Shown here: positions 6,198 through 24,269 of the stretch, in pieces | Layout: every line of letters starts with the position of its first letter | How positions within the stretch are numbered: position 1 is the stretch's first letter | From: a virus | Reading direction: 5' to 3' (one strand) | DNA length: 24,269 nt | Virus record (IMG/VR): IMGVR_UViG_3300010354_000635 | Coordinates: 1-24,269 of that record | Program-made: the position numbers and the translations under genes | Notes under the pieces: model-generated | Told to the model about the DNA's origin: nothing | Database searches by the model: none | What the model saw: the letters and a program-made list of their open reading frames with translations, nothing else

Positions 6198-6202
6198 CTA
6201 TT

Positions 6203-7222: not shown

Positions 7223-7251
7223 TTAAGGATCTCCTTAGTATTTTTAATAAT

Positions 7252-7259: not shown

Positions 7260-7271
7260 TAATTAACACGT

Positions 7272-7946: not shown

Positions 7947-7948
7947 TT

Positions 7949-8191: not shown

Positions 8192-8784
8192 TTGCCCATA
8201 GCTTTCTTAGTTGCAGTAGCATACATTACTTCTTTTGCTCTTTCACCATATCTCTGCTTGAAACCGGCTACGTTTTTTTTCATACCCTTAACAATATCTT
8301 CGCGCTTCTTCATCTCAGCGTCAGACATCTCTCTTTCACCGAGTTCTTTTCCATGGTAGAATGTATCCTCTTTCCAACATTCTTTAAGTCCATGTACTTC
8401 ACACATTACGTTCTCTGCAGTCATATTGCATTTTTTTTCAGATACTGTGCTACCTGTTGATGCATATCCATAATCAGTTGCATTTACATTTCTATCATCT
8501 TCTGAACCAACTTTTGAACCAGTAGTTTTCTTCTTAGCTTCAGCGACTTCTGTTTCTTCATAAGCTGCGGCGGCGGCTTCAACGCTACGATAACCATGTC
8601 TCTTGCCAGGATCATTCTTCTGAACTTTAGCTTCAGGCTTTACATTATCGGCGGTAAAAACATTCTTATTCTTGTTAACATCGCCACGATCATTAACAGT
8701 ATGTGTTGCGAGAAAATCTTCTTCGCCTTTAGGAACATTTCTACCAGCGTTTTTGCTTATGATATCTCTAAGATTCTTCGCCAT
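8188..8784 (-). CDS. 198-aa protein in the gene 68 position (prohead region), with Cys/His cluster
   Basis: This lies between 67 and 21, where T4 has the minor core protein gp68, but I see no clear gp68 likeness. It is charged and mostly disordered-looking. A block KNVFTADNVKPEAKV at about 40-54 and HGYRSVEAAAAAYEETEVAE at 63-82 are of a type recurring in marine phage proteins. A C119-x8-C128-x2-H131-x4-C136 cluster could bind a metal. The C-terminal basic helix KREDIVKGMKKNVAGFKQRY (160-179) leads into EVMYATATKKAM and is also recurrent in marine phages. The start overlaps the end of gene 67 by 17 nt. A structural or core role is inferred from position only. Confidence 0.75.
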   Translation of the reverse strand: MAKNLRDIISKNAGRNVPKGEEDFLATHTVNDRGDVNKNKNVFTADNVKPEAKVQKNDPGKRHGYRSVEAAAAAYEETEVAEAKKKTTGSKVGSEDDRNVNATDYGYASTGSTVSEKKCNMTAENVMCEVHGLKECWKEDTFYHGKELGEREMSDAEMKKREDIVKGMKKNVAGFKQRYGERAKEVMYATATKKAMGK

Positions 8785-9025
8785 TGCCTTCTAATTCCTC
8801 TGTATCGTTTTGTACTTCTTCTTCTGAAGGTTGATCTTCCTCTGAAGACTCATCCGGAATATCTTCTTCTGAATTAAAAATACTTTGAGCTATTTCTATT
8901 TTCTTATTATTTATAGAATCATTTATTCTGTCTGTTAAAGCTGAGTTGAACACACTTTGAAAATCTAATGGTTTTTCCAATACAGCATGATTTATTAAAT
9001 TTTTTAGAATTTCATCATTTTCCAT
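8768..9025 (-). CDS. 67: Prohead core protein gp67 (PIP)
   Basis: gp67 is a small acidic protein of the prohead core and is cleaved to internal peptides in T4. This one is 85 aa (T4 80). The signature SALTDRINDSINNKKIEIAQ at residues 28-47 parallels T4 AMAARTIDLIKEEKIAIARN, and both are followed by a long Glu/Asp-rich tail (52-85). The location directly after gene 20 is the T4 order. The start codon shares one base with the gene 20 stop (TAATG), indicating translational coupling. The tail overlaps the next gene by 17 nt. Confidence 0.88.
   Translation of the reverse strand: MENDEILKNLINHAVLEKPLDFQSVFNSALTDRINDSINNKKIEIAQSIFNSEEDIPDESSEEDQPSEEEVQNDTEELEGNGEES
8908..8915 (-). promoter_or_regulatory. 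Possible internal late promoter (TATAAATA) inside gene 67
   Basis: An exact minus-strand octamer lies within the gene 67 coding region. It stands 124 nt before the next start (8784), much farther than the other late promoters here (26-47 nt), so it may be a chance product of the coding sequence. If active it would boost the 198-aa gene, the 80-aa gene and gene 21. Confidence 0.35.
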
Positions 9026-10776: not shown

Positions 10777-10820
10777 CAATACCTACTTTACTGTTAAGTT
10801 TCATAATATAGTTATATAAA

Positions 10821-11420
10821 TTAAACCGGATTTAATTCAACGTTATAGATAGGTCCAGATTCTGTTGGTAGTGGTTCCCAATAATCATAAGAGAATGTAA
10901 CATCAAAAGATTCAATAGTATTTGTTGAATCCCAATCCAATGAGATAGCTCCAACAGATGTTGGGAATACACCATTGAACTTGTACTGTCTAATGATACC
11001 AGAATCATTAGATGGGCCAGCTTTACCAAACTGTTGAACTATTAGATCTACTTTATAAAGATCTGGTGTTCCACCTTGAATACCACCAAGAGCACCAGCT
11101 CTATTTGAAGCATGAGCATTAATTAAATTAAGCCATGATTCGAAAGAATTTCTAAGATCAAAGTCTTCATCATTCATACATGTTACCGACCAATCTTCGA
11201 ATGATCGATCACCTGCTACCTTGATAGTTCTTCCAAAATATGGAACTGGAACTGAAGATACAGAAGATGATGGTAAAGATGTTGATCTAATTAAATAACT
11301 AGCTCTCTCAACATCTCCAACAACTCCTCCAGGGAATTGCATGAGAACTCTGAAAAGTGTTGGTCTTGCACCACCAAAAATCAGACCCTGTGATCTAAAT
11401 GCGTCTACGTTAAAAGCCAT
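10821..11420 (-). CDS. 19: Tail tube protein gp19
   Basis: gp19 is the main subunit of the inner tail tube. The protein is 199 aa (T4 163). The signature elements are present: PTLFRVLMQFPGG (20-32), the loop STSLPSSSVSSVPVPYFGRT with the following IKVAGDRSFEDWSVTCMND strand pair, the FESWLNLINAH helix, and a C-terminal SFDVTFSYDYW strand. It is preceded by GAGGAG and lies directly downstream of the sheath gene. A protein with the same general fold is encoded at 3776-4297. Confidence 0.95.
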   Translation of the reverse strand: MAFNVDAFRSQGLIFGGARPTLFRVLMQFPGGVVGDVERASYLIRSTSLPSSSVSSVPVPYFGRTIKVAGDRSFEDWSVTCMNDEDFDLRNSFESWLNLINAHASNRAGALGGIQGGTPDLYKVDLIVQQFGKAGPSNDSGIIRQYKFNGVFPTSVGAISLDWDSTNTIESFDVTFSYDYWEPLPTESGPIYNVELNPV

Positions 11421-11443
11421 CTGTTAGACTCCTCTTTTATTTT

Positions 11444-11451
11444 TATTTATT
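11444..11451 (-). promoter_or_regulatory. Late-promoter-like variant (AATAAATA) ahead of gene 19
   Basis: One mismatch to TATAAATA, 24 nt before the gene 19 start and overlapping the gene 18 stop codon. Spacing is similar to the other late promoters, but the first base is altered, so activity is uncertain. Gene 19 may instead rely on transcription through gene 18. Confidence 0.35.
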
Positions 11452-14017
11452 AGAACTTGCCGACAACTTCAGAGAAGGCGACACCAGATCTAACAGCAAC
11501 GAAGTTCAACTGGATGAAGTTGATTGAACGAGCTGGCTTAATGTAGATATCACCAATAAACTCGTTACGATCAACAACTTCAGGTGTGTTGTTTGTTCCG
11601 TCACAAACAACCAAGAAGTCAGTGATACCGCGACGACCCTTAACATCTCTTAGATAAGGGATGATGAGGTTTCTAAATTGCGCTCTTGTGAATTCATCGT
11701 TGAACTCGAATAGAGTAAATTTAGCAGCTGTTGCGATTGCTTTTTCAAGAACAATAAACAATCTACGAACGTTAATTCTATCGAATGCAGATGGCTTATT
11801 AAGAGCTGTCTTATCACCGAATAGAACAATTCCTTGACCAGGGAATGCAACAACTGGGTTTACACCGGCTTTATAAAGCTGATCGCGATCTGCCTTTGAT
11901 GGGTTATAAGCTAGTTTGATAGCATTCTTAATATTGCCACGGTTGAAACCAGCAGGTGACCACCAAGGATCATTTGTAGAATCTGTGCGAACACATAGAC
12001 CAGCAATATCACCATTAAGTGGTACCCAACGATAAACATCGTTATACTTATCGTACATGTACTTATAACCAGAATCAACAACAGCATAAGAAGTACTTCT
12101 TACATTATTCTTAAATCCAAGAATCGAATCTAACTCGTTACCAGAATTATTAACAACATCGGACTTAAGTGGTGAGACAAAAGCTACGCAATCTTTTCTT
12201 ATTTCACAGATGTTATCAATAATATAGTTTGCTAGATCTGCATTTGATTTGCCCTTACCCTGAAGGATTAGAGAAACATCAACATCTTCTGCAGAAGCAA
12301 ACTTGTCGTAACCAGCAGCTATAACAGATAATGGAGCATTTAATTCACCATAACCGTCTTGACCAGTATTAAACTGTAGATTCAATGGAGCTTCATTTGT
12401 TGAGCTAACAATATTGACAGAGTTGTTATGAACAGCACCAGTTCTGTCGTTAGCGAACCAAACATATTTTGACTGTTCATTAATAACAGTCTTATAATAT
12501 AATGCTCCGCCATCGGCAGTCTTAGCATCGTCTGCTCTTGATAGACCTCTATAAACTTCTAGAAGAGTACCACCAACTCCACTAAATCTTCCGTTTTCAT
12601 CTACAATGACTACATGTAGTTCGTCATTTGCTGATGTGTTACCATATTCTGTTACATAATCAGATTGTCCTGGTGCTCTATCAACAGTATTATAGAATTC
12701 CCAGTAGCGATTGATTGTATTTGTTGTGTATGCTTCGCGAAGTCTATATCTATCAGAAGATGAAATAGAGATTGTCAGTGTTGTATTTGTTGCAGTAACA
12801 TTACTTCCAACTGAAGTAACTTTCATATACTGTTCACCAATTGATGCGTTACCAACTTTAATCAAATCACCTGCAGTAATTGAAGATGATAGAGAAAGAA
12901 TAGCTGTTTGAGCTAAGCTCCAAGCAACGAATGTATGGCTTTCAGAGTTTGCTTTTGGTGTTGGAACAATTAATCTTTCAACAGCTGTTAAGCTATGGCC
13001 AGATTCTGTAGCACCCTTTGTTATATTTACGTTTGAACCGCCGTATGTTGCGGCGAGAGTAACTGTTGTTGAGTTGGCAGTTGCAATCCAATAGTATGAA
13101 CCATTAGATAGACCACTGATTGCAGTATTTCCAGCAGCAACAATATACTGTACCTTATCACCAACAGCGTATTTTGTATTTGCTGAAGCAATCGCGATTG
13201 TTTCATCTGTATCATTAACAGATGAATTAGCGTTAAATGAAACAGCATTTGCAAAGTAACTTGTGTTACCAAGCTGGATACCTGTGCCATTTGAAGAGAT
13301 AACAAGGTATAGAGAGTTATTTGTTAAACCAGTTGGAGCTGTGTTTCCAGCTGCTGTAAGATACTTAACATAAGTACCATTTGCGATTGGATTTGATGTA
13401 ATTGTGAAGAAACCATTTGCATCAATACCTGTATTTGTATTAAATGATACGCTATTTGCACCAACTGTTACAGATAAACCTGAAGAATTAGCAGTAAATG
13501 TACCGCTATAATCATTTTCAGTGTTTGAAATTTGAATATTTGACTGGTAAGCATTTGCAGAGTCGCAAACTGAGATTCTTAGTGAATTACCAATTGTGCC
13601 TGGATATCTTGCAACATAGAGAACATCAGAATCAAAGTTACCATCCATTTCTTCATAGTGTTCTTCATTCTTAACAATTTGAGCTATAGAGTTTGATACA
13701 GCACCAACGTTTGCAAAAGCACTGAGAGTACCAACGTTTACAGTATCTGTTGTTGTATTTGCAACACGAACAACGTATAGCTTGTTTCCATATGAAAGGA
13801 AGCTTGCTGCAGTAAAGAATGTTTCTTCTGCAAAATTCTTATGTGGTGTACCAAAGCGCTGTACTAGAGCATTTTCTGAATCAATTAAAACACGCTTATC
13901 TAACGGGCCCCATCTGAATATACCGGCAATTGCACCTTCTGTAGTAGAAACTGCAGGCACGACCGTTGTTAGGTCGATTTCAGAAACATTTACGCCCGGG
14001 CTAACTTGAAATGGCAT
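11450..14017 (-). CDS. 18: Contractile tail sheath protein gp18, with repeat insertion
   Basis: gp18 is the contractile sheath subunit. The protein is 855 aa, about 200 longer than T4 (659). The N-terminus (FQVSPGVNVSEIDLTTVVPA, EGAIAGIFRWGP, residues 3-38) and the C-terminal domain (WWSPAGFNRGNI..., GQGIVLFGDKTAL, FDRINVRRLF, RGITDFLVVCDGTNN) are standard for the family. The extra length is mainly in an outer region at about residues 165-390. That region contains two tandem copies of an approximately 70-residue Asn/Thr/Ala/Ser-rich beta repeat (188-256 and 257-328). The core is thus intact and the insertion probably sits on the outer surface. The ribosome site is AAGGAGAG and a late promoter lies at 14064. 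Confidence 0.96.
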   Translation of the reverse strand: MPFQVSPGVNVSEIDLTTVVPAVSTTEGAIAGIFRWGPLDKRVLIDSENALVQRFGTPHKNFAEETFFTAASFLSYGNKLYVVRVANTTTDTVNVGTLSAFANVGAVSNSIAQIVKNEEHYEEMDGNFDSDVLYVARYPGTIGNSLRISVCDSANAYQSNIQISNTENDYSGTFTANSSGLSVTVGANSVSFNTNTGIDANGFFTITSNPIANGTYVKYLTAAGNTAPTGLTNNSLYLVISSNGTGIQLGNTSYFANAVSFNANSSVNDTDETIAIASANTKYAVGDKVQYIVAAGNTAISGLSNGSYYWIATANSTTVTLAATYGGSNVNITKGATESGHSLTAVERLIVPTPKANSESHTFVAWSLAQTAILSLSSSITAGDLIKVGNASIGEQYMKVTSVGSNVTATNTTLTISISSSDRYRLREAYTTNTINRYWEFYNTVDRAPGQSDYVTEYGNTSANDELHVVIVDENGRFSGVGGTLLEVYRGLSRADDAKTADGGALYYKTVINEQSKYVWFANDRTGAVHNNSVNIVSSTNEAPLNLQFNTGQDGYGELNAPLSVIAAGYDKFASAEDVDVSLILQGKGKSNADLANYIIDNICEIRKDCVAFVSPLKSDVVNNSGNELDSILGFKNNVRSTSYAVVDSGYKYMYDKYNDVYRWVPLNGDIAGLCVRTDSTNDPWWSPAGFNRGNIKNAIKLAYNPSKADRDQLYKAGVNPVVAFPGQGIVLFGDKTALNKPSAFDRINVRRLFIVLEKAIATAAKFTLFEFNDEFTRAQFRNLIIPYLRDVKGRRGITDFLVVCDGTNNTPEVVDRNEFIGDIYIKPARSINFIQLNFVAVRSGVAFSEVVGKF
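13034..13249 (-). repeat. Sheath insertion repeat, copy 2
   Basis: Residues 257-328 of gp18. The core is AVGDKVQYIVAAGNTAISGL then SNGSYYWIATANSTTVTLAA. It aligns with copy 1 through the shared A-x-G-x-x-V-x-Y, AAGNTA, GL-(S/T)-N and Y-x-x-I-x-(S/T) positions. At the DNA level the start (TTAAATGAAACAGCATTTGC on the plus strand) still resembles copy 1. Confidence 0.8.
13250..13456 (-). repeat. Sheath insertion repeat, copy 1
   Basis: Residues 188-256 of gp18. The core is ANGTYVKYLTAAGNTAPTGL then TNNSLYLVISSNGTGIQLGN. It directly abuts copy 2, with a period of about 70 residues, consistent with tandem duplication of one small beta domain. Confidence 0.8.
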
Positions 14018-14063
14018 TTTTCTCTCCTTCCATAGATGGAAATATTATTATTAATGTTTATTT

Positions 14064-14071
14064 TATTTATA
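14064..14071 (-). promoter_or_regulatory. Late promoter of gene 18 (TATAAATA)
   Basis: An exact minus-strand octamer sits in the 66-bp gap between genes 17 and 18, 47 nt before the gene 18 ATG, with AAGGAGAG in the leader. Confidence 0.85.
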
Positions 14072-14083
14072 AAAAAGAACATC

Positions 14084-15724
14084 TCATGTCAGTTTCTCAT
14101 TCGCCCACATCCAGTTCTCACCTTTTGGTAAGTCTAAATCTGGTTCATCTTCACCCTCTGAAAAGAATCCAAATGGTGTTAGTTCACTTGCTATTTGATC
14201 ATCATCTTTGTCTCTAATTTTGGTCAAAGTATTAATATCTGTCATTTCCCTAAAGTAGTGTTGATCTGATAACCAAGCAAAAAGTACGAGTCCAATAACC
14301 AAGTCGTCATGATTTCCTGACTCGGCTTCATATGATTTGCCTTTTCTAGAAAAAACAGATAGTTCATGTATTGTTTCATGATCATTAATGATCAACTGAT
14401 TCTGTTCTATTAAAAGTTTCATTATTGAACAACCTACAGACTTGACTGTCTTGGTTGTTCTAATCCCTTTATCAGCGCTAGATCCACTAAAACCAGATGA
14501 GATTCTCTTACCTGCTCTACCGTCATTTTCAGAAGATAAGAGAGTATCCATATCATATTCATAATATAGCATGTCTGAAACTTGACCACCAATATCATTG
14601 ATTTCCACAAGCACAGAAGCATTGTTATATGATCTGCTTATCCTATGAATAATTGAGCAATAATCAGTAGGAGTGATCATGTTATCTCTAAAAATACATA
14701 CTTGTTCGTATGGCATTTTAGTTACGTCTATAACTTGAAACGCAGAATAATCCAAACCTTTACCACGTGATACGTCGACAATTACAACATATGAATGACC
14801 TTGTTTAGGCTCAACATATTGTTTAATACCATTCTTATCAAAAAGTGGTATCTTAGCTACCAGTTCTTTTAATTTCCAACCAGCAATAAGAGTACCAGAG
14901 CTACCAAGAAACTCTACGCAGTATTCCTGCTCGAACTTCTCAGTGTCGAAGCTCATGGCGGCGATAGTGTCTTCTCTCCACTTATCATCTCTGCCAGGAA
15001 CATCATACCACATAACTTTGATAGGCTTATACTGATTCTTTTGTTGTTCAGCTTCTACCCAAATCTTATGAAAATGATTTAGTCCGTTTGGTGTAGAAAC
15101 TAACACGATCTTAGAATCATTACCAGAAGAAATCGTAGGATAAACTGAGGTAAAGAACTCATCCCATGTATCAATGAAGGCTGCTTCGTCGATGAATAGA
15201 AGGTTGATAGAATAACCACGAATAGCATCTGATGAAGTAGCAGCAGCTATAACTCTTGAATTATTTTCAAGTACGAAAGAACCTTTGTTCCATTCTATGA
15301 TGCCCTGCTGTAACCACTTTGGAAGATGCTGATATGCAAGCTGGATACGACCAAGAATTTCTCTAGCAGTATCACCCTTGTTGGCAAGAAGAGCAACAGT
15401 CTTATCTGGATTAAATATAATATACCATAATATGAAACCGCAGGTTGTTGTAGACTTACCAGCCTGACGTGCTGTTGCGATGACCGTATATCTGTTTTCG
15501 GCCATCGATGTTATCATTTCTTTTTGATAATCATAAAGATTAAAATTTATAAGACCTTCATTAATACTAATAATTTTCATATACTTTTCAATAAAGTATA
15601 TCGGATCTTTAGCACATTTCACGTATTCTTGTACGAGTTCTGGAGTCCATTGTATCTCTACAGAACGTCTTTTAAGATTTACGTTACCCTTATAACCACC
15701 TTCAATTATGACTTCTTCAGTCAT
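14084..15724 (-). CDS. 17: Terminase large subunit gp17 (ATPase and nuclease)
   Basis: gp17 is the packaging motor that translocates DNA into the prohead and cuts the concatemer. The protein is 546 aa (T4 610). ATPase motifs: Walker A ARQAGKST at 85-92, Walker B LLFIDE at 175-180, and coupling motif VSTPNG at 209-214. RNase H-like nuclease residues: D317 in VDVSRGKGLDYS, E374 in VEIND and D474 in NHDDLVIG, corresponding to the T4 D401/E458/D542 triad. The start overlaps the gene 16 stop by 8 nt, so it is probably coupled with the small subunit. All catalytic positions appear intact. Confidence 0.98.
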   Translation of the reverse strand: MTEEVIIEGGYKGNVNLKRRSVEIQWTPELVQEYVKCAKDPIYFIEKYMKIISINEGLINFNLYDYQKEMITSMAENRYTVIATARQAGKSTTTCGFILWYIIFNPDKTVALLANKGDTAREILGRIQLAYQHLPKWLQQGIIEWNKGSFVLENNSRVIAAATSSDAIRGYSINLLFIDEAAFIDTWDEFFTSVYPTISSGNDSKIVLVSTPNGLNHFHKIWVEAEQQKNQYKPIKVMWYDVPGRDDKWREDTIAAMSFDTEKFEQEYCVEFLGSSGTLIAGWKLKELVAKIPLFDKNGIKQYVEPKQGHSYVVIVDVSRGKGLDYSAFQVIDVTKMPYEQVCIFRDNMITPTDYCSIIHRISRSYNNASVLVEINDIGGQVSDMLYYEYDMDTLLSSENDGRAGKRISSGFSGSSADKGIRTTKTVKSVGCSIMKLLIEQNQLIINDHETIHELSVFSRKGKSYEAESGNHDDLVIGLVLFAWLSDQHYFREMTDINTLTKIRDKDDDQIASELTPFGFFSEGEDEPDLDLPKGENWMWANEKLT

Positions 15725-16124
15725 TCTTTCTCATATCCTGAATTACTTTTTGCAGTTCTGCCGTTGAGCCAACAAATAAGTTATTATGATTTACAGTAGT
15801 ATTATTTGTTGGCTTTTCAATATCCTCAATCTCTCTTATAGTTTTTTGTATGCCAAGAAGATCTTTATTAGCATCAAGTAAATTTTTCATAAGGATTGCT
15901 ACAACTTCATAAGCGCGGGCAGATTGTGACTGGTCAGCAAGTTGCATAAGCTTATCAAGAGCATCAGATCCAGTCTCTATGATATTATGGATATTAGCAC
16001 GTGCTACCGTAAAGTCATCTTTAGCTGTATCATCATTTGCTTCTTTTTCTAATTGTTTTACAACTGATGTTATTGGACTTATTCCTAGCGCATTACCAAT
16101 AGGATCGTTATTTGCTGTTGACAT
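15717..16124 (-). CDS. 16: Terminase small subunit gp16
   Basis: gp16 regulates gp17 and binds phage DNA at packaging initiation. The protein is 135 aa (T4 164). The central portion (about residues 40-105) is a helical pair of the gp16 type: ARANIHNIIETGSDALDKLM and SARAYEVVAILMKNLLDANK. An Asn-rich linker NNTTVNHNNLFVGSTAEL precedes a short C-terminal helix. Its position immediately before gene 17 with an 8-nt overlap confirms the call. The upstream ribosome site is weak. Confidence 0.92.
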   Translation of the reverse strand: MSTANNDPIGNALGISPITSVVKQLEKEANDDTAKDDFTVARANIHNIIETGSDALDKLMQLADQSQSARAYEVVAILMKNLLDANKDLLGIQKTIREIEDIEKPTNNTTVNHNNLFVGSTAELQKVIQDMRKND

Positions 16125-16131
16125 TTTTCAC

Positions 16132-16971
16132 TCATTCTGTTATAATGTTATCTATAGAGACACAATAACCAAAATCATCAGTTGCTTCAATCTCAGATAA
16201 TGCTACAGATTGTGATACGTTTGATGTTGGAGTGCCGTTTGCAGTAAGACCTGGTCTTACCGTAACTCTTTCTGAAGGGTTTGTTACTCCGACTGCACTT
16301 TGGAGTTGACCATCAGGCACGTTTGGAATATAGAAGTTAGTATTAGCAAACTTTATTATACCAGATTTCTTAACAGGACCATAAATGTATCCTTTTAAAG
16401 TGAAATCTAAAGTCCATATTAGAGCTCTTCTTCTCTCGAAGTCTCCTTCATACGAATCTTCAATATTTATATTATCTAATACAACAGGTATATCCATATT
16501 AATACCCATTTCAGGTATTAGTTGAACAGTAGTTGTCCAATCAGGAGTAAAAAATGGAAGTATTTGTTCTATAATTTTAGTGCCATCTTCAGCATTTTTT
16601 ACGTATACATAAAGTCTAAAAGATATATTATAAGGAACTGGATTATATTGATACTTTAATTTACTTGTAGAATCTGCATCTCTAACTACTGTTCTACCAA
16701 CGGTATTTAATTTTCTATTACCATCATATCTCATATCTAACATTTCAAAAGACATTCTTGGTAAGACTATAGCAGCCTGCCTGTCTATATTAGGGTCAGC
16801 ATCTATTCTAGCTAATACTTTTTCTTTAGGCGCATATGCTAAAGGTACTTTTATCAAAGCTACAGTAGTATTAGTTGAATCTGTTCTAGTGATATGAATA
16901 TCATTAAACAGAGTTCCAAATAACGTTACATATTTTCTTATCGTGCTGAAATAAAATGTATGACCAAACAT
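16132..16971 (-). CDS. 15: Tail completion / sheath-terminator protein gp15
   Basis: gp15 forms the hexameric ring that caps the tail tube and sheath and joins the tail to the neck. The protein is 279 aa (T4 272). The N-terminus MFGHTFYFSTIRKYVTLFGT matches the T4 start MFGYFYNSSFRRYATLMGD in spacing and aromatic pattern. It is followed by VPLAYAPKEKVLARI (T4 VPITYASKEHFMMKL) and a VLPRMSFEMLDMRYD block (T4 ILPRINLHLVDFSYN). The ATG overlaps the gene 14 stop as TAATG. Confidence 0.95.
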   Translation of the reverse strand: MFGHTFYFSTIRKYVTLFGTLFNDIHITRTDSTNTTVALIKVPLAYAPKEKVLARIDADPNIDRQAAIVLPRMSFEMLDMRYDGNRKLNTVGRTVVRDADSTSKLKYQYNPVPYNISFRLYVYVKNAEDGTKIIEQILPFFTPDWTTTVQLIPEMGINMDIPVVLDNINIEDSYEGDFERRRALIWTLDFTLKGYIYGPVKKSGIIKFANTNFYIPNVPDGQLQSAVGVTNPSERVTVRPGLTANGTPTSNVSQSVALSEIEATDDFGYCVSIDNIITE

Positions 16972-17696
16972 TAATATGTTCCGTTCTCTGAGAATGGATC
17001 TTTTTCAGTGAAATCTAAGAAATCATCTGTTTCATTTTGTATAAAGCTGTTATCAGAAAGATCATCAATCTCTTCTAAAGTAAAGTTTTCCATTACTATG
17101 TAGTCCGAATTCTCGTCTATTATTCTTTCACCATCTTCATTTAGAAGCGCCCAATCAAATACATTTAATGAAAAATTCTTTTGAATAGAATCGATTTCTG
17201 GTATACCTGTGTCAAACTTCTCGTTTGAGTATTCGAAGAGTTCACATGTAAGTTCCCAAGTTTGTAGAGCTCCGAGTTGATAGAACATTTCAAACTTATT
17301 GACGAACATGATCTTAAATACTTTATTATTAAGTGGAAAATAAATTAGATCACCTTCATTCGGTCTAAGTAATGTGCTGTCCATACCAACTTCTTCGTAG
17401 AATACTCTCTGCGCAACAGAGAATACAACTTGATCTCTAATTTCTAGACCAAACTTAGACATGAAATTACCATCACCTGTAAAACCATCAACAGACTTAA
17501 TGTATAGTTCTACAGGATAAGCCCTATTATATTCTGATACATCATCAGCACCATAGATGTCATCTTTATTTTTAATAACTCTTGGAACATAATACATATC
17601 TTGCCCATAGATTTTTATGGACTCAATAATAAGATTCTCAATGAGAAGCTGTTCTTGACTATTTTGAAAGTTATTAAAATAAAAATTTGTAGCCAT
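16971..17696 (-). CDS. 14: Neck protein gp14
   Basis: gp14 is a head-completion/neck protein that, with gp13, seals the filled head and receives the tail. The protein is 241 aa (T4 256). Conserved features are YFNNFQNSQEQLLIENLIIE near the N-terminus (T4 HYKNSQTLADLVVAE), IYGQDMYYVPR (T4 MRGVECYYVPR), the FMSKFGLEIRDQV segment, and GDLIYFPLNNKVFKI (T4 GDLIYFPMDNSLFEI), ending in an acidic tail with DPFSENGTY (T4 SPFDNDFMD). It overlaps gene 13 as TAATG. Confidence 0.95.
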   Translation of the reverse strand: MATNFYFNNFQNSQEQLLIENLIIESIKIYGQDMYYVPRVIKNKDDIYGADDVSEYNRAYPVELYIKSVDGFTGDGNFMSKFGLEIRDQVVFSVAQRVFYEEVGMDSTLLRPNEGDLIYFPLNNKVFKIMFVNKFEMFYQLGALQTWELTCELFEYSNEKFDTGIPEIDSIQKNFSLNVFDWALLNEDGERIIDENSDYIVMENFTLEEIDDLSDNSFIQNETDDFLDFTEKDPFSENGTY

Positions 17697-18436
17697 TAGC
17701 CTATCATATCTGTTACTGGCAGACTATAGCTGCTTATCATTTCTTTTTCTAAAGCTTTAATTTCATCGTCTGCTTCATCATATATTTTTTGACCATTAAA
17801 TTTTATACCACCTGGTAAAGTCATACCTTCAAATTTCTTTAAGTTTGTGCCCCACTGTTTTTTAATAAGAGCTGTTGTATATTGTAGTAACCAACGATCA
17901 CCCCAAGCATCAGTATAAACGTCAGGATCTACAACTTCATATGCTTCAACAATAAGATAGTGATTATCTTCTAGTTTATTCCAGTCCATATCAATATTTA
18001 ATTTATCCATATGTCTATTATATCTTAATGGTTGTTTTCCAACAAGAAGATATTCCAACATCTGGATATGTTGGAGAGCCATATAGTATGGAACCATAGA
18101 CACAGAAGTTAAAGTATAAAGATCATTTAAAGCGATCTGGTATCTAATATTGAACATATTATTAGTGTTTAAAGCATCACCAATATTAAAGATGTTTACA
18201 ACACCAATTATATTCTCTGGTAGAGTAATATACTTATTGATCTTATCTTGAGCTGTAACTTGGTGTTTATAATAAATTTTCTCAGAACCATCAAAATGAT
18301 AGTCCCAATAGTATCTTAATGCTTGGTCTATACGGTCTTCAACTTGATCATCATCTACGTTGATTTCCAAAACCGGCTTGCCAAGCGTACGGAGACAATA
18401 TTCTTTAAACTGTGATCTTGTTGTTGGTACTGCCAT
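17696..18436 (-). CDS. 13: Neck protein gp13
   Basis: gp13 is the partner of gp14 in the neck. The protein is 246 aa, shorter than T4 gp13 (309). Typical features are the N-terminal TRSQFKEYCLRTLGKPVLEI (6-25), then NVDDDQVEDRIDQALRYYWD and the C-terminal WLLQYTTALIKKQWGTNLKK block. It has a GGAG ribosome site 8 nt from the ATG. It is the first gene of the 13-14-15-16-17 unit and is read from the minus-facing late promoter inside the divergent palindrome at 18462. Confidence 0.94.
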   Translation of the reverse strand: MAVPTTRSQFKEYCLRTLGKPVLEINVDDDQVEDRIDQALRYYWDYHFDGSEKIYYKHQVTAQDKINKYITLPENIIGVVNIFNIGDALNTNNMFNIRYQIALNDLYTLTSVSMVPYYMALQHIQMLEYLLVGKQPLRYNRHMDKLNIDMDWNKLEDNHYLIVEAYEVVDPDVYTDAWGDRWLLQYTTALIKKQWGTNLKKFEGMTLPGGIKFNGQKIYDEADDEIKALEKEMISSYSLPVTDMIG

Positions 18437-18461: not shown

Positions 18462-18469
18462 TATTTATA
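18462..18469 (-). promoter_or_regulatory. Late promoter of genes 13-17 (TATAAATA, minus-facing half of a palindrome)
   Basis: An exact minus-strand octamer lies 26 nt before the gene 13 start. It shares four bases (18466-18469) with a plus-facing octamer. Confidence 0.82.
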
Positions 18470-18473
18470 AATA
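18466..18473 (+). promoter_or_regulatory. Late promoter of the plus-strand modification cassette (TATAAATA)
   Basis: An exact plus-strand octamer lies 33 nt before the ATG at 18506, whose ribosome site is GGAG. Together with the minus-facing copy it forms the 12-bp palindrome TATTTATAAATA at 18462-18473. It is the only exact plus-strand TATAAATA I found. Confidence 0.82.
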
Positions 18474-18505: not shown

Positions 18506-19207
18506 ATGAAGATCCTCAACTACATTAAAAATGAATTTCCTAAGATCAATAACAAAAACTTTCATAAGTTTCTTACCCTAGAATGGGTAGATGAAAACTT
18601 TATGTTTGATCTTAAAGCTTCAGATTATCAGACTCTACAAGAGTTTTGTGAAGCAATGCATGTAAAATACATTTCTAGATACTTCTCCGGAGTCTGGAAA
18701 TCTAAGCATGGATATGCAGAATCTGGTAGATACTTGATTAAGTTTGCTAACATGCAAAAATCACAGTCTATCTTAGATGTTGGATGTGGAGATAATTACT
18801 ATAAAGACAAGATTAAAAATCTAGTAGGCTTAGATCCTTATCATCCTAAAGCAGATATCAAGAAGACTCTTGAAGAATTTCAACCTAAGAAACAATATGA
18901 TCAAGTATTAGCTCTCGGAAGCTTGAACTTTGGTACTGATAGAAAACACATTGATGAAATGTTTGCTAAAGTTATTAATATGACGAAAATAAACGGATAT
19001 ATCTATTTTAGATTTAATCCCGGCATCGATCATAAACCATTCACTAAAGACAAGACTAGCTTTAAGTTTATTGATTGGTTCCCATGGACACAAGAACATA
19101 TATTTGGTTTGATGAAAATTCACAACCTTAAAATGATTAGGTTTGCAATTGAAAGAAATCAGCAGGGTGACGAGAGATACTTTTATATAATGCAGAGGTT
19201 AGGATGA
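18506..19207 (+). CDS. SAM-dependent methyltransferase, class I (copy 1)
   Basis: Predicted to transfer a methyl group from S-adenosylmethionine to an unknown acceptor. The 233-aa protein has motif I ILDVGCGDNYY at 89-99, an acidic ribose-binding position D110 in VGLDPYHPKADI, and the post-motif LALGSLNFG at 135-143. It has about 80 extra residues before the fold, and a Trp/Phe-rich C-terminal part (FIDWFPWTQEHIFG). The core is clearly paralogous to the protein at 20010-20612, with nearly identical LD(V/L)GCGDN...KNL(V/I)G(L/I)D and GS(L/I)NFG. It is the first gene of the operon, with ribosome site GGAG. The substrate cannot be read from the sequence. It is not like known DNA adenine or cytosine methylases (no DPPY or PC motif). 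Confidence 0.88.
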   Translation: MKILNYIKNEFPKINNKNFHKFLTLEWVDENFMFDLKASDYQTLQEFCEAMHVKYISRYFSGVWKSKHGYAESGRYLIKFANMQKSQSILDVGCGDNYYKDKIKNLVGLDPYHPKADIKKTLEEFQPKKQYDQVLALGSLNFGTDRKHIDEMFAKVINMTKINGYIYFRFNPGIDHKPFTKDKTSFKFIDWFPWTQEHIFGLMKIHNLKMIRFAIERNQQGDERYFYIMQRLG

Positions 19208-20013
19208 TTAGTTATAACACATCTCCATATGATCAGTGGATATCGCTAAAGACTAAAGAACCAGTAACATATCATGGGTTTAATGGGTTATATGAATTTT
19301 GTAAAGCAACTAGTCTTTATGATTTTAGTAAAAAAGTTGGAGATCAAGTAGGAGATATACCAAATTATATTCCTATATGTAAGTTTGATGGTCAGTGGGA
19401 AGATGATGTAAAACAAATGATATTTCAGACTGAACCTGCTACTTTTGATTTCAGATCTAATCCAAGATTTGATAATAATAACAACATGGAATATAATGAT
19501 TTTAAAAAATGGGGTTATAAAGTAGATGGTGAAGATGATTCTTATGCAGTCTTAAATAGGATAAGACACGCAGATCTTCCAGATAGTATGATAAAGATTG
19601 CTGAATTATTTCAGTTTGATAATCCATCTGGTAGAAAAAATAAAAAACCTAATATTAAATTTGATGTTCAGATGCCAGGACAAATGTTTTATTGGCATCT
19701 TGATAACTTCGGTGGTATTCTTAAAGAGCAGAGAAATGATTATAACGCTTTTGCTCCATGCGATCATGATCAACGCTTGATAATGCGAGTGATAGTTTTC
19801 TTAGATGATCAAAAAGAAGGTCAAGTATGGAAACAAGGAAATGAATACATCCACTGGAAGAAGGGTGATTGTATAACATGGCCATGGAGAGATGTTCCTC
19901 ACGGTACATGCAATTTCGGCCATGATCCTAGACCAACTCTAAATATTACTGGCGCAGTAACTGAAAAAACTTATGAGTTTTTAAAATCATGTCCGAGATT
20001 AATTTCGATATGA
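19204..20013 (+). CDS. 2-oxoglutarate/Fe(II)-dependent oxygenase (hydroxylase-like)
   Basis: Predicted to oxidise, most likely hydroxylate, a substrate using Fe(II), oxygen and 2-oxoglutarate. The 269-aa protein carries the jelly-roll metal site: H165-L-D167 in FYWHLDNFGG, and distal H233 in WRDVPHGTCNFGHDPRPTLN, with R243 in the position that binds 2-oxoglutarate. The H-x-D...H...R order and the GDCITWPW strand between them fit the aspartyl/prolyl hydroxylase-like families. Related oxygenases are frequent in marine T4-like phages. The start overlaps the previous stop as ATGA, with GAGG/AGG upstream. The N-terminal 100 residues are of unknown role. The substrate is unknown. Confidence 0.82.
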   Translation: MISYNTSPYDQWISLKTKEPVTYHGFNGLYEFCKATSLYDFSKKVGDQVGDIPNYIPICKFDGQWEDDVKQMIFQTEPATFDFRSNPRFDNNNNMEYNDFKKWGYKVDGEDDSYAVLNRIRHADLPDSMIKIAELFQFDNPSGRKNKKPNIKFDVQMPGQMFYWHLDNFGGILKEQRNDYNAFAPCDHDQRLIMRVIVFLDDQKEGQVWKQGNEYIHWKKGDCITWPWRDVPHGTCNFGHDPRPTLNITGAVTEKTYEFLKSCPRLISI

Positions 20014-20612
20014 ATGATCTAAATGAATCTATAAAAAAAGTTTTTCATAGAACTGATTTTAGAAAATTTCATTATAACAAATATGAAAAATGTGGTGATG
20101 AGACTATTGAATTGATTAATAGTTTAAACCCAGATTTAGTACTTGATCTAGGGTGCGGTGATAATCAATATAAAGAACATATTAAAAATTTAATAGGAAT
20201 AGATATAGCAAATAAAAATGCAGATATAATAGCTGATATTGCCAATCTACCTTACGAAGATAATAGTGTAGATGCATGTTTGTGTTATGGAAGTATTAAT
20301 TTCGGTGATGATGAAGTCATAGAAAAACAAATTAGAGAATTGAAAAGAGTCTTAAAAGTTAATGCTATCTCTGTTTTTAGAGGCAATATTCATAAGAGTG
20401 ATATGTTACCTTATTATGTATGGTCAGAAGAAAAAGTTAATTATTGGACTAAAAAATTAAATTTTACTTTGCAAGTAGAACCAATCATTATAAGAAGGTT
20501 GAAAAGAGGTAGAAAAGAAATAAATGATAAATGGAAAGATAGAATCTCTACAGAAGCTGGTGTTCAACCTAGACCTATCGAAAGACTTTATTGGATATGG
20601 AGAAAAAATTGA
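20010..20612 (+). CDS. SAM-dependent methyltransferase, class I (copy 2)
   Basis: A 200-aa methyltransferase. Motif I is VLDLGCGDN at 44-52, the acidic loop residue is D65 in IGIDIANKNADI, and then come the LPYEDNSVDA motif at 80-89 and GSINFG at 94-99. This resembles the methyltransferase-11 type (small-molecule acceptors), and it is a paralogue of the gene at 18506 without its N-terminal extension. The start at 20010 gives the usual ATGA overlap with the oxygenase stop. An in-frame ATG at 19989 would extend it by 7 residues and cannot be excluded, as neither has a strong ribosome site. The C-terminus is Arg/Lys-rich (RRLKRGRKEIND). Confidence 0.87.
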   Translation: MNDLNESIKKVFHRTDFRKFHYNKYEKCGDETIELINSLNPDLVLDLGCGDNQYKEHIKNLIGIDIANKNADIIADIANLPYEDNSVDACLCYGSINFGDDEVIEKQIRELKRVLKVNAISVFRGNIHKSDMLPYYVWSEEKVNYWTKKLNFTLQVEPIIIRRLKRGRKEINDKWKDRISTEAGVQPRPIERLYWIWRKN

Positions 20613-21475
20613 CAGACGGCAGTGATCTTATATTTGCAGCTGGTGCACCTGGAAGTAAATGGAGTAGAGTTTTAAGTATCTTAGCTCATCATAAAGATAT
20701 TAATTCATCTGATAAAAATAAATTTCCTACTTATCAAACTAAAGTAGATTTTCATGGTCAAGAAAAAAATGTTGGTATGCATTCTGCAGCATATTTTGGA
20801 CCAGGTCATGGGATAGGTGAATGGTTTGATGATTTATCTGGGCATACAAAAAAAGATTTTTTAAACGAAATAGAAAAAGCCTTTGATAATTTTAATCAAG
20901 GTTATAAAATAATAAAGTCACACTGGTTTTCATATAATCTCGACTGGTTAAAAGAAAATTTTCCAAAAGCTAAAATAATAATGGTTTATAACGGTGATGT
21001 TGAAGCTTTTAAATGGTGGCATCTTGTTGGTGGATGGAATATTAAGTTTCCATATTATGACTGGTACGGTACAGACGAAAAGCTTTATAAACATATAAAG
21101 ATAGAAAATAGATTAATATTTGATTTTATGAGAAAAAATAATCTCAGCTTTGACATTAGAGATTTTAAAGAACTAGTAAAATACCTTCAATTAGATGAAG
21201 ACTTAAATTTTTATGATACTATGCATGATGAGGATTCTGATTATTTTGCTGGTAGGAAATATACTAAAGGATTTAAAAAGTATGGTATAGGAACTACCAT
21301 ATCCGTATATAACCCAGAAATACAAGCTTCCAGCAATCTAGATGACTTGTTACCAAGCATAAATAATAAGATTTCAAGCAAACATGTAGAGGGTCGTATA
21401 GATGATATATTGACAAACCTCTATGGAAAAGATTGGTTAGATAGAATTCATGCTATTATAGCAGGAGAAAAATAA
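20609..21475 (+). CDS. Sulfotransferase-like P-loop protein (copy 1)
   Basis: Resembles PAPS-dependent sulfotransferases. The N-terminal phosphate loop GAPGSKWSR (residues 12-20 from the TTG) follows a hydrophobic strand LIFAA, and KIIKSHWFSYNLDWLKENFP with KAKIIMV forms the next helix-strand pair. The arginine usually found in the 3'-phosphate-binding region is not evident. I chose the TTG at 20609 because GGAG lies 6 nt upstream and because it overlaps the preceding stop (TTGA). It also makes the N-terminus line up with the paralogue at 22124 (MTDGSDLIF versus MRDDQLIFF). An ATG at 20597 would add four residues. The C-terminal 70 residues are absent from the paralogue. Sulfo-acceptor and donor are unproven. 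Confidence 0.75.
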   Translation: MTDGSDLIFAAGAPGSKWSRVLSILAHHKDINSSDKNKFPTYQTKVDFHGQEKNVGMHSAAYFGPGHGIGEWFDDLSGHTKKDFLNEIEKAFDNFNQGYKIIKSHWFSYNLDWLKENFPKAKIIMVYNGDVEAFKWWHLVGGWNIKFPYYDWYGTDEKLYKHIKIENRLIFDFMRKNNLSFDIRDFKELVKYLQLDEDLNFYDTMHDEDSDYFAGRKYTKGFKKYGIGTTISVYNPEIQASSNLDDLLPSINNKISSKHVEGRIDDILTNLYGKDWLDRIHAIIAGEK

Positions 21476-22099
21476 ATGAGAATTAATGCTTTTATATCAT
21501 TTGATCCTCTATTTTCAGAGATCAACACTGTTTTAGAACATCAGACTACAGCAGATATTATTGAAGATAAGAATGGTGAACTTTTTGATTTCCCTTATCA
21601 GAATATCAATGTTATTTCTGGTAGAACATATAGATCTAGTATATTGAGTGGGGCTTTACCAACACTTATTGAAAATATGTTTGATACTACTGGAAGAGAA
21701 GAAGTTAATTTTGGTGTTAGGATCATGAATGGTTTAGCACCAACAACTAGACTAATAAGTGCATTTAATGAAAAGCTTCCTTCTGGTTCAAGATTATTTC
21801 TTATAAAGAAGCAAGATCTATCAAGTGTTGTTACTTATTATCAGAATTTATATGATACACTTACAGCTTCAACCGCACGTCCTGACCAGATGAGAAGAAA
21901 AGTATTGTTCTGTCTTCCAGGTGAAACAGTTACACACCAGCAGATTTCAGATGCTGTGTATGATGTATACAACTATGTTGATGCATATTTTTCTTCTATA
22001 TATGCAACTGCTTTTTCAGAATTCAATCAATCTCATTTTGTAACCGGTGGATCTGAAACAAACACAGGATTACTTTACAGATTGCACGTAATTCCTTAA
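21476..22099 (+). CDS. Unrecognised 207-aa protein, possibly virion-associated
   Basis: No family is recognised. The protein starts MRINAFISFDPLF and has mixed alpha/beta character with no signal peptide or membrane segment. It contains a hydroxyl-rich middle (TYRSSILSGALP, SGSRLFLIKK), an ARPDQMRRKVLFCLPGETVT stretch and an aromatic helix (YDVYNYVDAYFSSIYATAF). It is preceded by a strong GGAGA ribosome site, and its 5' neighbour stops immediately before the ATG. Its base composition (about 42% GC by hand count at 21841-21960) is higher than in flanking enzyme genes (about 20% at 22561-22620) and resembles the structural genes. It is therefore likely well expressed and may be a virion component or the substrate of the surrounding enzymes, which is inference only. 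Confidence 0.8.
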   Translation: MRINAFISFDPLFSEINTVLEHQTTADIIEDKNGELFDFPYQNINVISGRTYRSSILSGALPTLIENMFDTTGREEVNFGVRIMNGLAPTTRLISAFNEKLPSGSRLFLIKKQDLSSVVTYYQNLYDTLTASTARPDQMRRKVLFCLPGETVTHQQISDAVYDVYNYVDAYFSSIYATAFSEFNQSHFVTGGSETNTGLLYRLHVIP

Positions 22100-22109
22100 T
22101 ATTTTAAGG
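22094..22109 (+). other. Small hairpin at the 21476 stop / 22124 ribosome-site junction
   Basis: CCTTAA, a TATT loop, then TTAAGG. It includes the stop codon of the upstream gene and the AAGG part of the only purine-rich stretch before the 22124 ATG. The stem is only six pairs with two GC pairs and no T-run follows, so it is not a terminator. It may influence reinitiation at the next gene. Confidence 0.3.
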
Positions 22110-22123
22110 GCGAATTATATTTA

Positions 22124-22828
22124 ATGAGAGATGATCAACTTATATTTTTTGTTGGAGCACCAGGTAGTTCTTGGTCAAGAATAGCAACCATTCTTGGATA
22201 CTCACCAAAACTAAATTTAAACCTCTCTGATTATTCATCAGAGAGGCAATACTATATTAAAAATAGTAAGTCATGGTCTCACTTAATAAACCATCAGGGT
22301 TCTTATTTCGGGTCTGAAATGGAATTTGGTTATAGGTTTGAAGATCCAGAAAGTTTCTATAACAAAATATCTTTTAAGAATGAACTAGCCAGAGCTTTTT
22401 CTGAGTTAGATGATGATAAAAATTACCTGATAAAAAGTCATTCTTTAGCATACAATCTAGATTGGTTAGTTAATAACTTTCCAAAAAGCAAAATTATTTT
22501 TGTAATAAAACAACCTATAGAAGAGTGTGTTGAATGGTGGCAAAGCGCTGGTGGATTTGATATAACTTATCCATGTTATGAATGGTATAAAGATAAAGAT
22601 CTATATAAAGAGTTTAATAAACAACAACTAAGCATAAAAAAGTTTATCAATGATTGCGGTTATCTTTTATATGCTCCAACTAATTCTTTGTTTAAAAATA
22701 AATTGCAAATTAATATAGATGAAAAACCAGTTAGTGAACATATTAAAGCTATTCAACTATTAAATCCAAGTGGTGAGGGTGATCCTGATTACAGGACACA
22801 AATTTGTTTTTATAATATGGATATATGA
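22124..22828 (+). CDS. Sulfotransferase-like P-loop protein (copy 2)
   Basis: This 234-aa paralogue of the protein at 20609 shares the loop GAPGSSWSR (residues 11-19), the YLIKSHSLAYNLDWLVNNFP helix region, KSKIIFVIKQP, a WW pair (VEWWQSAGGFDI) and YEWYKDKDLYKEF. Both copies therefore keep the same predicted cofactor fold while differing in the loop after the third strand and in the C-terminus. It is the only gene of the plus-strand operon not directly abutting its predecessor (24-nt gap), and its ribosome site AAGGG is far (13 nt) from the ATG and lies in a small hairpin. It overlaps the glycosyltransferase gene as ATGA. The acceptor is unknown. Confidence 0.75.
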   Translation: MRDDQLIFFVGAPGSSWSRIATILGYSPKLNLNLSDYSSERQYYIKNSKSWSHLINHQGSYFGSEMEFGYRFEDPESFYNKISFKNELARAFSELDDDKNYLIKSHSLAYNLDWLVNNFPKSKIIFVIKQPIEECVEWWQSAGGFDITYPCYEWYKDKDLYKEFNKQQLSIKKFINDCGYLLYAPTNSLFKNKLQINIDEKPVSEHIKAIQLLNPSGEGDPDYRTQICFYNMDI

Positions 22829-23550
22829 TGACACTAAAAATATATTGTTTCAAGTGGGGTACTAAGTACGGTCCTGAATACGTGAATAGGTTGTACAAAT
22901 CTATATGTAAAAATTATAAGGGCAGCATTGTATTTACGTGTATAACCGATGATAAGACTGGATTAAATTCGAATATCAATATTATTGATTACAATACCAG
23001 TAAAATACATAGTCTTAATAATGTTTTTACTATTGAAAAATTAAAACTATTTGATCCAAACTATGTTGGTCCTGGCAATAACATATTGTTTGATATTGAT
23101 GTCTTATGTTTAAAAGATTTTACTTCTTATATAAAAGAATATAATTTTGTTGAACCAAGATTTATTAAGAATTATTGGGCTAATCCTGAGCAATGCGTTG
23201 CTTATTTCCATAAAGGAGCCTGTGATATAAACAGTTCTTTTATTACATGGAAAGATAATCAATTAGAACCACTTTATAAATTCTATATAGACAATAAAAA
23301 GAAAATAAATTTCTTATTTAAAAGCTTCGATAAATCTCTTTTTGGCATATTCAGAGATAAATTAAAATATCATCCAAGAAATATTGTTTATGCTTATAAC
23401 TTTGGTGCTGATCATAGAGATGACATGAAACCAGATATTCTTAGAGATAATTACTATTTTTGTTTATTTAATACATCGCATGGAGTAGGTAAAGAACTTC
23501 ATGAAGTTGATGGCTGGGCAAAGAAGATGTGGGTTGATAACGATGCTTAA
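22825..23550 (+). CDS. Glycosyltransferase, GT-A fold (GT8-like)
   Basis: Predicted to transfer a sugar from a nucleotide-sugar donor. The 241-aa protein begins with LKIYCFKWGTKYGPEYVNRL, typical of small phage and bacterial GT-A enzymes. It has the metal-binding D-x-D motif D90-I-D92 in ILFDIDVLCL, preceded by the TIEKLKLFDP helix, and a C-terminal SHGVGKELHEVDGWAKKMW segment reminiscent of the final H-x-x-G-x-x-K motif of GT8. It has no membrane segment, so it acts in the cytoplasm. The ATG at 22825 overlaps the previous stop (ATGA); a second ATG follows one codon later. Donor and acceptor sugars are unknown. Confidence 0.83.
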   Translation: MMTLKIYCFKWGTKYGPEYVNRLYKSICKNYKGSIVFTCITDDKTGLNSNINIIDYNTSKIHSLNNVFTIEKLKLFDPNYVGPGNNILFDIDVLCLKDFTSYIKEYNFVEPRFIKNYWANPEQCVAYFHKGACDINSSFITWKDNQLEPLYKFYIDNKKKINFLFKSFDKSLFGIFRDKLKYHPRNIVYAYNFGADHRDDMKPDILRDNYYFCLFNTSHGVGKELHEVDGWAKKMWVDNDA

Positions 23551-24259
23551 TATGTCTCAGCTCAAAAAGCAGATGGATTCATATAATAAGTTTTATAATT
23601 CAAGACTTAGAGCATTTATTTCTGCTTATGAAGAAGAAAAGTCAAAAATATTTGAATCAGTACTTAATAAGTTCGATTTTATTAAGAATGAAAATGTGAG
23701 CTTTGTCGCTAGTGGCTTACCATTTTTTATGATTAATGTTTTAAATAAAAGATTTTATGAATGCGATAAAGAATTTAAATATCTAAATAGAAGTAAAAAA
23801 ATAATAAATCAAGATGATGGATTATTTGAAATTACTTTCATAGATTTAATTAAAAAAGAAAATGTTGAAAGACAAAATAACATTAAAACTATTAAACTAA
23901 TTGATTATAGTCCACTTATCAAATCTACATTTAATATTATTAAAGAACATTTTGAAAATTTATCAATAGAGTATCATAACAAAAATGTAAATTTTGAAGA
24001 TATCAGAGATATAACAAAAGATAGTTTAGTAATAATACCATACAGCGAATATTTGTATATATTGAATGAACTTAATATTTTCAACGAAGGACAGTATGTT
24101 TTAGTCTTCAATCAAAAAGATGATGACGAGAAAAGAAAAATTAATACAGTTCTTTGTATCGAAGATCTTGTAGAACAGTGTGGATTTAGTGAAACTTTAT
24201 TCGCCGAAAAATATGATTTAAACGGCATCAAGATGTATCTAGCTCTAGGAAAAATATGA
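23543..24259 (+). CDS. Unrecognised 238-aa protein of the modification operon
   Basis: No family recognised. It has an N-terminal helical part (MSQLKKQMDSYNKFYNSRLR, EEEKSKIFESVLNKF), then alternating strands and helices (VSFVASGLPFFMINVL, FEITFIDLIKKE, IKTIKLIDYSPLIKSTFNII, SLVIIPYSEYLYIL, YVLVFNQK) that suggest a Rossmann-like domain. It is very AT-rich with Lys, Asn and Ile. The start at 23543 overlaps the glycosyltransferase end by 8 nt; the ATG at 23552 is an equal alternative. Further upstream in-frame starts lie deep in the glycosyltransferase and were not used. Given the operon it may be another transferase, but there is no motif to prove it. Confidence 0.78.
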   Translation: MLNMSQLKKQMDSYNKFYNSRLRAFISAYEEEKSKIFESVLNKFDFIKNENVSFVASGLPFFMINVLNKRFYECDKEFKYLNRSKKIINQDDGLFEITFIDLIKKENVERQNNIKTIKLIDYSPLIKSTFNIIKEHFENLSIEYHNKNVNFEDIRDITKDSLVIIPYSEYLYILNELNIFNEGQYVLVFNQKDDDEKRKINTVLCIEDLVEQCGFSETLFAEKYDLNGIKMYLALGKI

Positions 24260-24269
24260 AAAACATAGT
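24256..24269 (+). CDS. Start of a further plus-strand gene, cut by the window edge
   Basis: An ATG at 24256 overlaps the preceding stop as ATGA and has AGGA 6 nt upstream (after TAGCTCT). Only the first codons (M-K-N-I) are visible, so no function can be assigned. The same ATGA coupling occurs elsewhere in this operon, which makes it likely that the operon continues. Confidence 0.5.

Follow-up and report, generated by a model that had tools for sequence, protein, structure and literature searches.

Aquatic phages hold many 2-oxoglutarate (2OG) oxygenases, which have lacked an assigned role ever since their first cataloguing. Genes for these enzymes have been described in cyanophages and pelagiphages, the glycosyltransferases of pelagiphage myoviruses have been read as enzymes of lipopolysaccharide modification (PMC3037559, PMC9599517), and sulfotransferases are merely listed among viral auxiliary genes (PMC10829341). 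In the literature on sulfotransferases, 2OG oxygenases and phages, we found no description of a linked hydroxylase-methyltransferase-sulfotransferase module. Here we analyze an apparent module of this kind in the 24,269-base IMG/VR virus record IMGVR_UViG_3300010354_000635, the whole of which is referred to below as the window and which comes from an uncultured aquatic phage with a T4-like gene order. Eight open reading frames, designated c1 to c8 (18506-24259), lie on the plus strand beside the neck gene gp13 and are predicted to encode two methyltransferases (c1, c3), a 2OG-Fe(II) oxygenase (c2), two sulfotransferase-type proteins (c4, c6), a glycosyltransferase-like protein (c7) and two proteins without a class (c5, c8).

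The described operon of Pelagibacter phage HTVC008M is, like that of the window, divergent from gp13, found in the same position and rich in 2OG enzymes. It consists of genes for two 2OG-Fe(II) oxygenases, two phytanoyl-CoA-dioxygenase-like proteins and a ferrochelatase-like protein but, unlike the cassette of the window, contains no annotated methyltransferase, sulfotransferase or glycosyltransferase. A DNA search of isolate phages gave no match; in tblastn searches, c2 had no match in 50,697 phage records, and c4 had two weak matches in phage records, one single-cell marine virus sample being the source of both.

The core module and its variable rim

Homologs of c2 were found in 39 IMG/VR loci (loci and contigs are denoted L below). 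In 19 contigs, in which the identity of c2 ranges from 47 to 98% and the genomic contexts are highly varied, the gene for a c3-type methyltransferase directly follows c2 on the same strand. The order c2-c3-c4 is seen again outside the gp13 site in L011, L012 and L014, with relatives of c5 next in L011 and L014, so that the order of the core genes, examination of the gene order having been proposed as a check in the original prediction, does recur in other phages. Three nearly identical loci (L125, L128 and L130) are exceptions, in which a fiber gene with an Mtd_N domain stands after c2 in place of c3. At the gp13 site, the cassette genes act as a unit in at least 10 contigs.

The core is also lost and replaced jointly. 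In two loci from different samples (L152 and L153), c2, c3 and c4 are absent as a group, with c1 and c5 intact on either side; this state represents loss because the junction retains a 14-codon start of c2, FDKSPYELWKNLKT, followed by a stop. In L115, gp13 and gp17 are 97% identical to those of the window, and c1 and c6 are 77% and 85% identical, respectively, whereas the identity drops to 64% for c2, 58% for c3, 60% for c4 and 51% for c5, a pattern consistent with a recombinational exchange of the c2-c5 block. Thus, c2-c3-c4, usually with c5, form a module whose genes share inheritance, replacement and loss. Co-inheritance, co-loss and co-replacement thereby link one phage 2OG oxygenase with a methyltransferase and with a protein of the sulfotransferase type, and delineate a three-gene module small enough to be expressed and assayed.

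Around this core, c1, c6, c7, c8 and the radical S-adenosylmethionine (SAM) genes vary between relatives, in some of which two extra genes, for a radical-SAM protein (CxxxCxxC) and for a small cysteine-rich protein, separate c6 from c7. Because the core moves as a block while the surrounding genes change, we conclude that the cassette consists of a core module and a variable rim rather than a fixed eight-step pathway. The original prediction of one dedicated pathway of all eight enzymes is, then, not supported; the independent scattering of genes that would speak against any common pathway is seen in the rim, where c1, c6, c7 and c8 come and go, and not in the core, which enters unrelated contexts as a unit. 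A rival view, in which the genes have no joint function at all and are accessory genes independently acquired at a permissive site, draws on the variable content around the core (with radical-SAM genes present or absent), on the separate evolution of c6-c8 and c2-c5, and on the general hotspot character of the gp13 site, but has to contend with the co-deletion, co-replacement and co-location of the core across lineages and with purifying selection on every gene, so that we consider it very improbable.

The cysteine-rich protein is encoded separately, ahead of the radical-SAM gene, in L004 (13625-14561), L010 (10745-11738) and L112 (11589-12534), where it is 109-128 amino acids long and has the appearance of an auxiliary-cluster (SPASM-like) domain that has become detached.

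Predicted activities of the cassette proteins

The four residues of c2 (19204-20013, plus strand; 269 amino acids) that correspond to the HxD..H iron triad and the 2OG-binding arginine (H165, D167, H233 and R243) are invariant in 27 homologs. The AlphaFold2 model of this protein (predicted local distance difference test score, pLDDT, 89.6) was compared with the PDB using Foldseek; the top solved folds were AspH, WelO5, proline hydroxylase and prolyl hydroxylase, and the top 50 matches were all 2OG oxygenases or cupin-fold proteins, indicative of the double-stranded beta-helix fold. The nearest of these, AspH, was matched with an E-value of 6e-6 and a template modeling (TM) score of only 0.34. 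Nevertheless, c2, which retains the full HxD..H triad, does not match PF05118, the AspH family, and four of 14 homologs match it weakly (best E-value 0.0066). Thus, c2 is a 2OG-Fe(II) oxygenase, as originally proposed, that by score falls outside the AspH family. A bacterial origin of c2 was considered and rejected: a genome scan yielded five loci only, all of them small contigs of metagenome-assembled genomes, several with phage-like neighbors, which are probably binned viral DNA.

The assignment of c3 (19989-20612, plus strand, start possibly 20010; 207 amino acids) as a SAM methyltransferase is firm at the level of sequence families, with two Pfam profiles above the cut-off (PF08241, 37.1 bits against a cut-off of 21.2, and PF05148, 37.5 bits). 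For c1 (18506-19207, plus strand; 233 amino acids), a class I SAM methyltransferase-like protein with a VLDVGCG motif, the Pfam methyltransferase profile scored 14.3 bits, below the cut-off of 27, yet the DVGCG motif is conserved and 12 of 14 homologs match Methyltransf_23, so that this call, made from the motif and the family link, is weak. Of the two SAM methyltransferases in the original prediction, therefore, c3 stands on Pfam scores and c1 on motif and family link.

Phages are known to combine oxygenases, transferases and methyltransferases in the modification of bases, and a DNA or RNA hypermodification pathway would agree with the weak similarity of c1 to RNA-modifying methyltransferases and with the proximity of c2-c3 to DNA-metabolism genes in L021, L113 and L114. 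However, the fold of c2 is nearest to AspH and to amino-acid and small-molecule oxygenases, with nucleic-acid oxygenases accounting for none of the 50 best Foldseek matches; no base-modifying oxygenase or hydroxymethylase was named among the cassette proteins by Pfam or NCBIfam, the rest of the genome not having been searched for one; and the predicted late timing would fall after most DNA synthesis. A role in hypermodification is, in our view, scarcely probable.

The proteins c4 (20591-21475, plus strand, starting with TTG at 20591 or ATG at 20597; 294 amino acids) and c6 (22124-22828, plus strand; 234 amino acids), which align with each other, belong to a viral family with more than 500 confirmed relatives among the matches listed (600 first pattern matches in IMG/VR). 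Over 62 dereplicated homologs, P20, G21, W24, D41, H64, H111, W143 and Y156 are invariant, S22 of the PGSxW motif is kept in 60, and position 109 is lysine or arginine in all but one. We take the N-terminal P-loop and the (K/R)(S/C)H motif to be the P-loop that binds 3'-phosphoadenosine 5'-phosphosulfate (PAPS) and the catalytic KxH of sulfotransferases, with H111 as the presumable catalytic base. The P-loop and the invariant histidine are shared with Sulfotransfer_3 (PF13469), but neither c4 nor c6 had a Pfam or NCBIfam match above the cut-off, their Sulfotransfer_3 scores being 12 and 18.3 bits, respectively, against 27; this family is matched by seven of 12 c4 homologs (best E-value 2.6e-5).

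The glycosyltransferase-like c7 (22825-23550, plus strand; 241 amino acids) contains a DID motif, in which D90 and D92 are invariant in nine homologs, including a paralogous ninth gene described below, and has no Pfam, NCBIfam or PDB match; thus, the predicted DxD glycosyltransferase is borne out by the motif and not by a family match. The AlphaFold2 model of the alpha/beta protein c5 (21476-22099, plus strand; 207 amino acids) is of fair quality (pLDDT 81.7) and has no Foldseek match in the PDB below an E-value of 0.001. The gene follows c4 in the clade of the window and in L014, and a distant copy is present in L011 as well. The possibility that c5 is a degenerate sulfotransferase, with an order of structural elements that is similar by eye, was rejected given an hhalign probability of 0.1 and the lack of Foldseek matches below the same threshold. 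The last complete gene of the window, c8 (23543-24259, plus strand; about 238 amino acids), starts at 23543 or 23552 rather than at 23501; it was found only in the clade of the window and has no family (Pfam, NCBIfam) or PDB match. Its interpretation as a degenerate methyltransferase was rejected as well (hhalign against the c1 family, probability 0.1). Searches of PDB sequence profiles with c2, c4, c5, c7 and c8 detected no credible relative, and PHROGs assigned no function to the cassette proteins.

Operon layout and predicted late expression

From position 1 to 18436, all genes of the window are on the minus strand, including gp17, gp16, gp15, gp14 and, beside the cassette, gp13 (17696-18436, identified by tblastn to annotated neck proteins), the divergent partner of the cassette and the anchor of the hotspot discussed below. 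The open reading frames c1-c8 are opposed to every one of them. ATGA overlaps join c1 to c2 and c6 to c7, c2/c3 and c3/c4 overlap by 22-25 nucleotides, and the gap is zero between c4 and c5 and 24 nucleotides between c5 and c6; because the junctions overlap or touch, apart from the 24 nucleotides ahead of c6, translational coupling is likely. In the L003 contig, where c2 is 98% identical, c8 is followed by a ninth gene, a glycosyltransferase-like paralog of c7 (28% identity), beyond which the convergent genes of the other strand encode a protein that resembles an oxygenase by eye and a glycosyltransferase-like one, along with small proteins and a LamG-domain protein of at least 688 amino acids. 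From this layout, the cassette consists of nine genes placed between the neck genes and the fiber region. Hence the tightly coupled plus-strand operon of the original prediction, and its continuation past the window, are both confirmed.

All cassette genes are under purifying selection, with a ratio of nonsynonymous to synonymous substitution rates (dN/dS) of at most 0.13 relative to L003 where measurable, the synonymous rate (dS) being close to saturation for more distant pairs. For c5 (21476-22099 against L003:12273-12896), dS is 0.33, compared with 0.00-0.08 for the neighboring cassette genes, a sign of local recombination within the cassette.

The intergenic region contains a palindromic TATTTATAAATA (18462-18473, both strands), in which T4-type late promoter elements overlap in both directions: a plus-strand copy of TATAAATA at 18466-18473, 33 nucleotides ahead of c1, and a minus-strand copy at 18462-18469 that would serve gp13. 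A single copy means little because TATAAATA is not rare in the window (eight copies against 4.3 expected). However, GTATTTATAAATAA is identical in 11 of 11 related loci of the clade, with variable surrounding bases. Given this invariance and the presence in the window of a gene for a gp55-like late sigma factor (853-1413, minus strand, named from sequence reading and synteny rather than by family search), there is good support for the prediction of late expression in both directions, of the cassette and of gp13, in agreement with the late promoter originally proposed, and the cassette would be expressed together with the virion genes.

The gp13-side site, the proposed target and known systems

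Two scans for gp13 retrieved 132 loci, among which 87 gp13 sequences are distinct, and the upstream neighbor was visible in 80 of the 87. This neighbor is co-oriented or tiny in 70 of the 80 lineages and a divergent operon in the other 10, all of which read as sugar-type or 2OG enzymes. The L064 and L090 operons encode a PfkB kinase/nucleotidyltransferase, a cupin and an epimerase, a set that reads as ADP-heptose synthesis (with Pfam support for L064), and that of L067 encodes a DAHP/KDO8P-synthase family protein, a cytidylyltransferase, a 2OG oxygenase, a family 2 glycosyltransferase (these four Pfam-supported) and a cupin, and reads as CMP-Kdo synthesis. A glycosyltransferase-like protein (by eye) is present in L084, L090, L091, L094, L095 and L102, in most of these along with a DUF6445 protein (Pfam-confirmed in L091), and a 2OG/phytanoyl-type enzyme with a glycosyltransferase (by eye) in L267 and L276. 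Among isolates, Mosig has a co-oriented gene set at this site, and DLP_6, Cr30, phiM12 and Melnitz have no such annotated genes there. Genes of the surface-sugar and 2OG types thus settle repeatedly at the gp13-side site, and this company is the best clue to the target of the cassette; where the original prediction allowed either a virion protein or a cell-surface glycan, the occupants of the site tilt the choice towards the glycan.

On the other side of gp13, between it and gp14, some relatives (L009, 1010-1435; L112, 6063-6488; L120, 2543-2968) carry an inserted gene for a protein of about 141 amino acids that resembles a nuclease (by eye, of the thermonuclease type).

Our tentative interpretation, to which we would give a probability of about 40%, is that the cassette is mobile, is expressed late and serves to tailor a surface glycan. 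Conceivably, c2 would install a hydroxyl on a sugar or another part of a glycan or glycolipid, methylation (c3, c1) or sulfation (c4, c6) would cap this or a neighboring hydroxyl, and c7 and the ninth gene product would add sugars. The most likely target would be the host envelope glycan, altered late in infection, perhaps to keep the progeny from sticking to their own cell or debris or to block adsorption by competing phages. A more specific proposal, that the self-contained, horizontally exchanged module, of a kind not known from cultured phages, marks a surface glycan or fiber in a new way during virion assembly, by hydroxylation, methylation and sulfation, and is swapped among phages to change virion-host recognition, appears doubtful.

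Several points weigh against a surface glycan. No flippase or membrane glycosyltransferase was found among the eight open reading frames or in the rest of the L003 operon, for which reason the cassette does not represent classical seroconversion (O-antigen conversion of the gtrABC type). Further, the c2-c3 pair lies away from fibers in L113 and L114, beside clamp-loader subunit and thyX-like genes, and in L021, in a contig with high-light-inducible-like genes (all named by sequence reading), DNA-methylase-like genes also being among the neighbors in these loci. The nearest solved fold of c2, distant as it is, belongs to a protein hydroxylase. Position 134 of the c4/c6 family, which we presume to contact the 3'-phosphate, is arginine in 43 of 62 homologs but asparagine in c4 and lysine in c6, and with this arginine lost in both, sulfate transfer is not certain and activity is not to be assumed; the two predicted sulfotransferase-like P-loop proteins, therefore, retain the conserved type of active site, without a family score above the cut-off and without the arginine. 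Finally, c5 and c8 are left unexplained by glycan tailoring.

Fiber genes (LamG, Mtd_N) are close to the cassette in several architectures, including the fiber region of L003/L249 and L125/L128/L130, and in L141 the sulfotransferase genes are almost immediately downstream of a fiber gene. Such proximity is compatible with host-envelope remodeling and with virion decoration alike. Within the fiber region of a close relative, G002 (L248:6836-9972, minus strand), there is a run of genes for a 2OG oxygenase, two proteins without assignment, a small membrane-type protein and a sulfotransferase-type protein.

Modification of a virion protein, most likely of the adjoining tail fibers or receptor-binding proteins, with c2 hydroxylating side chains and the transferases capping or glycosylating them, would account for this neighborhood (in L125/L128/L130 the fiber gene directly follows c2), for the additional run in G002 and for the best fold match of c2, the peptide hydroxylase AspH. 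It accords less well with the c2-c3 pairs far from fibers in L021, L113 and L114 and with the other cassettes at the gp13 site, which make nucleotide-sugar-type precursors; moreover, AspH lacks the HxD aspartate that c2 retains. On balance, we regard it as unlikely. The predicted timing fits either host-envelope remodeling before lysis or virion decoration; the host envelope is slightly favored over virion fibers as the target, and a small molecule comes third.

Some of the viral islands with oxygenase, methyltransferase and sulfotransferase families are wider. TctA-family or TctC-like proteins of tripartite tricarboxylate transporters are encoded in L014 (5786-7237) and L011 (8057-9016), both Pfam-confirmed, and in L143 (401-2876) and L246 (13669-16244), where they were recognized from family clustering or by eye; one may speculate that they supply organic acids such as 2OG. 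Islands in L133 (9251-10702), L246 (7980-8816) and L128 (11659-12402) include a carbamoyltransferase, a class IV aminotransferase and a short AMP-binding protein and resemble a biosynthetic cluster.

The biosynthetic look of such islands suits a third explanation, namely, that the enzymes act in auxiliary metabolism, in the synthesis or modification of a small molecule, a lipid or a cofactor, with no surface structure involved; in the same vein, the 2OG genes of pelagiphages have been discussed as metabolic partner genes (PMC9599517). All of these island genes, however, are outside the cassette of the window, the operons that share its site are of the sugar-nucleotide type, and its promoter is of the late type, which makes this explanation rather improbable.

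Returning to the tailoring of a surface glycan, the most informative parallels are the sugar operons of L064, L067, L090 and L091, which have in common with the cassette their site and orientation, enzymes of the surface-sugar type and, in the region separating the two operons, a TATAAATA-like element. These operons make activated sugars (ADP-heptose-type and CMP-Kdo-type), whereas the cassette of the window appears to consist of tailoring enzymes. The T4-like cyanophages resemble the window in that these marine T4-like phages carry multiple 2OG oxygenases of unknown function, but the cyanophage enzymes are mostly of 180-240 amino acids and belong to other clusters, and the text, in which neither methyltransferases nor sulfotransferases are mentioned, contains no linked methyl- and sulfotransferase module (PMC3037559). 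The hotspot beside gp13, with its divergent sugar and 2OG operons in unrelated phages, predicts the kind of substrate and offers a route to further cassettes. By these comparisons, the cassette seems to belong with phage accessory cassettes for surface modification, among which its linked oxygenase-methyltransferase-sulfotransferase module is apparently new.

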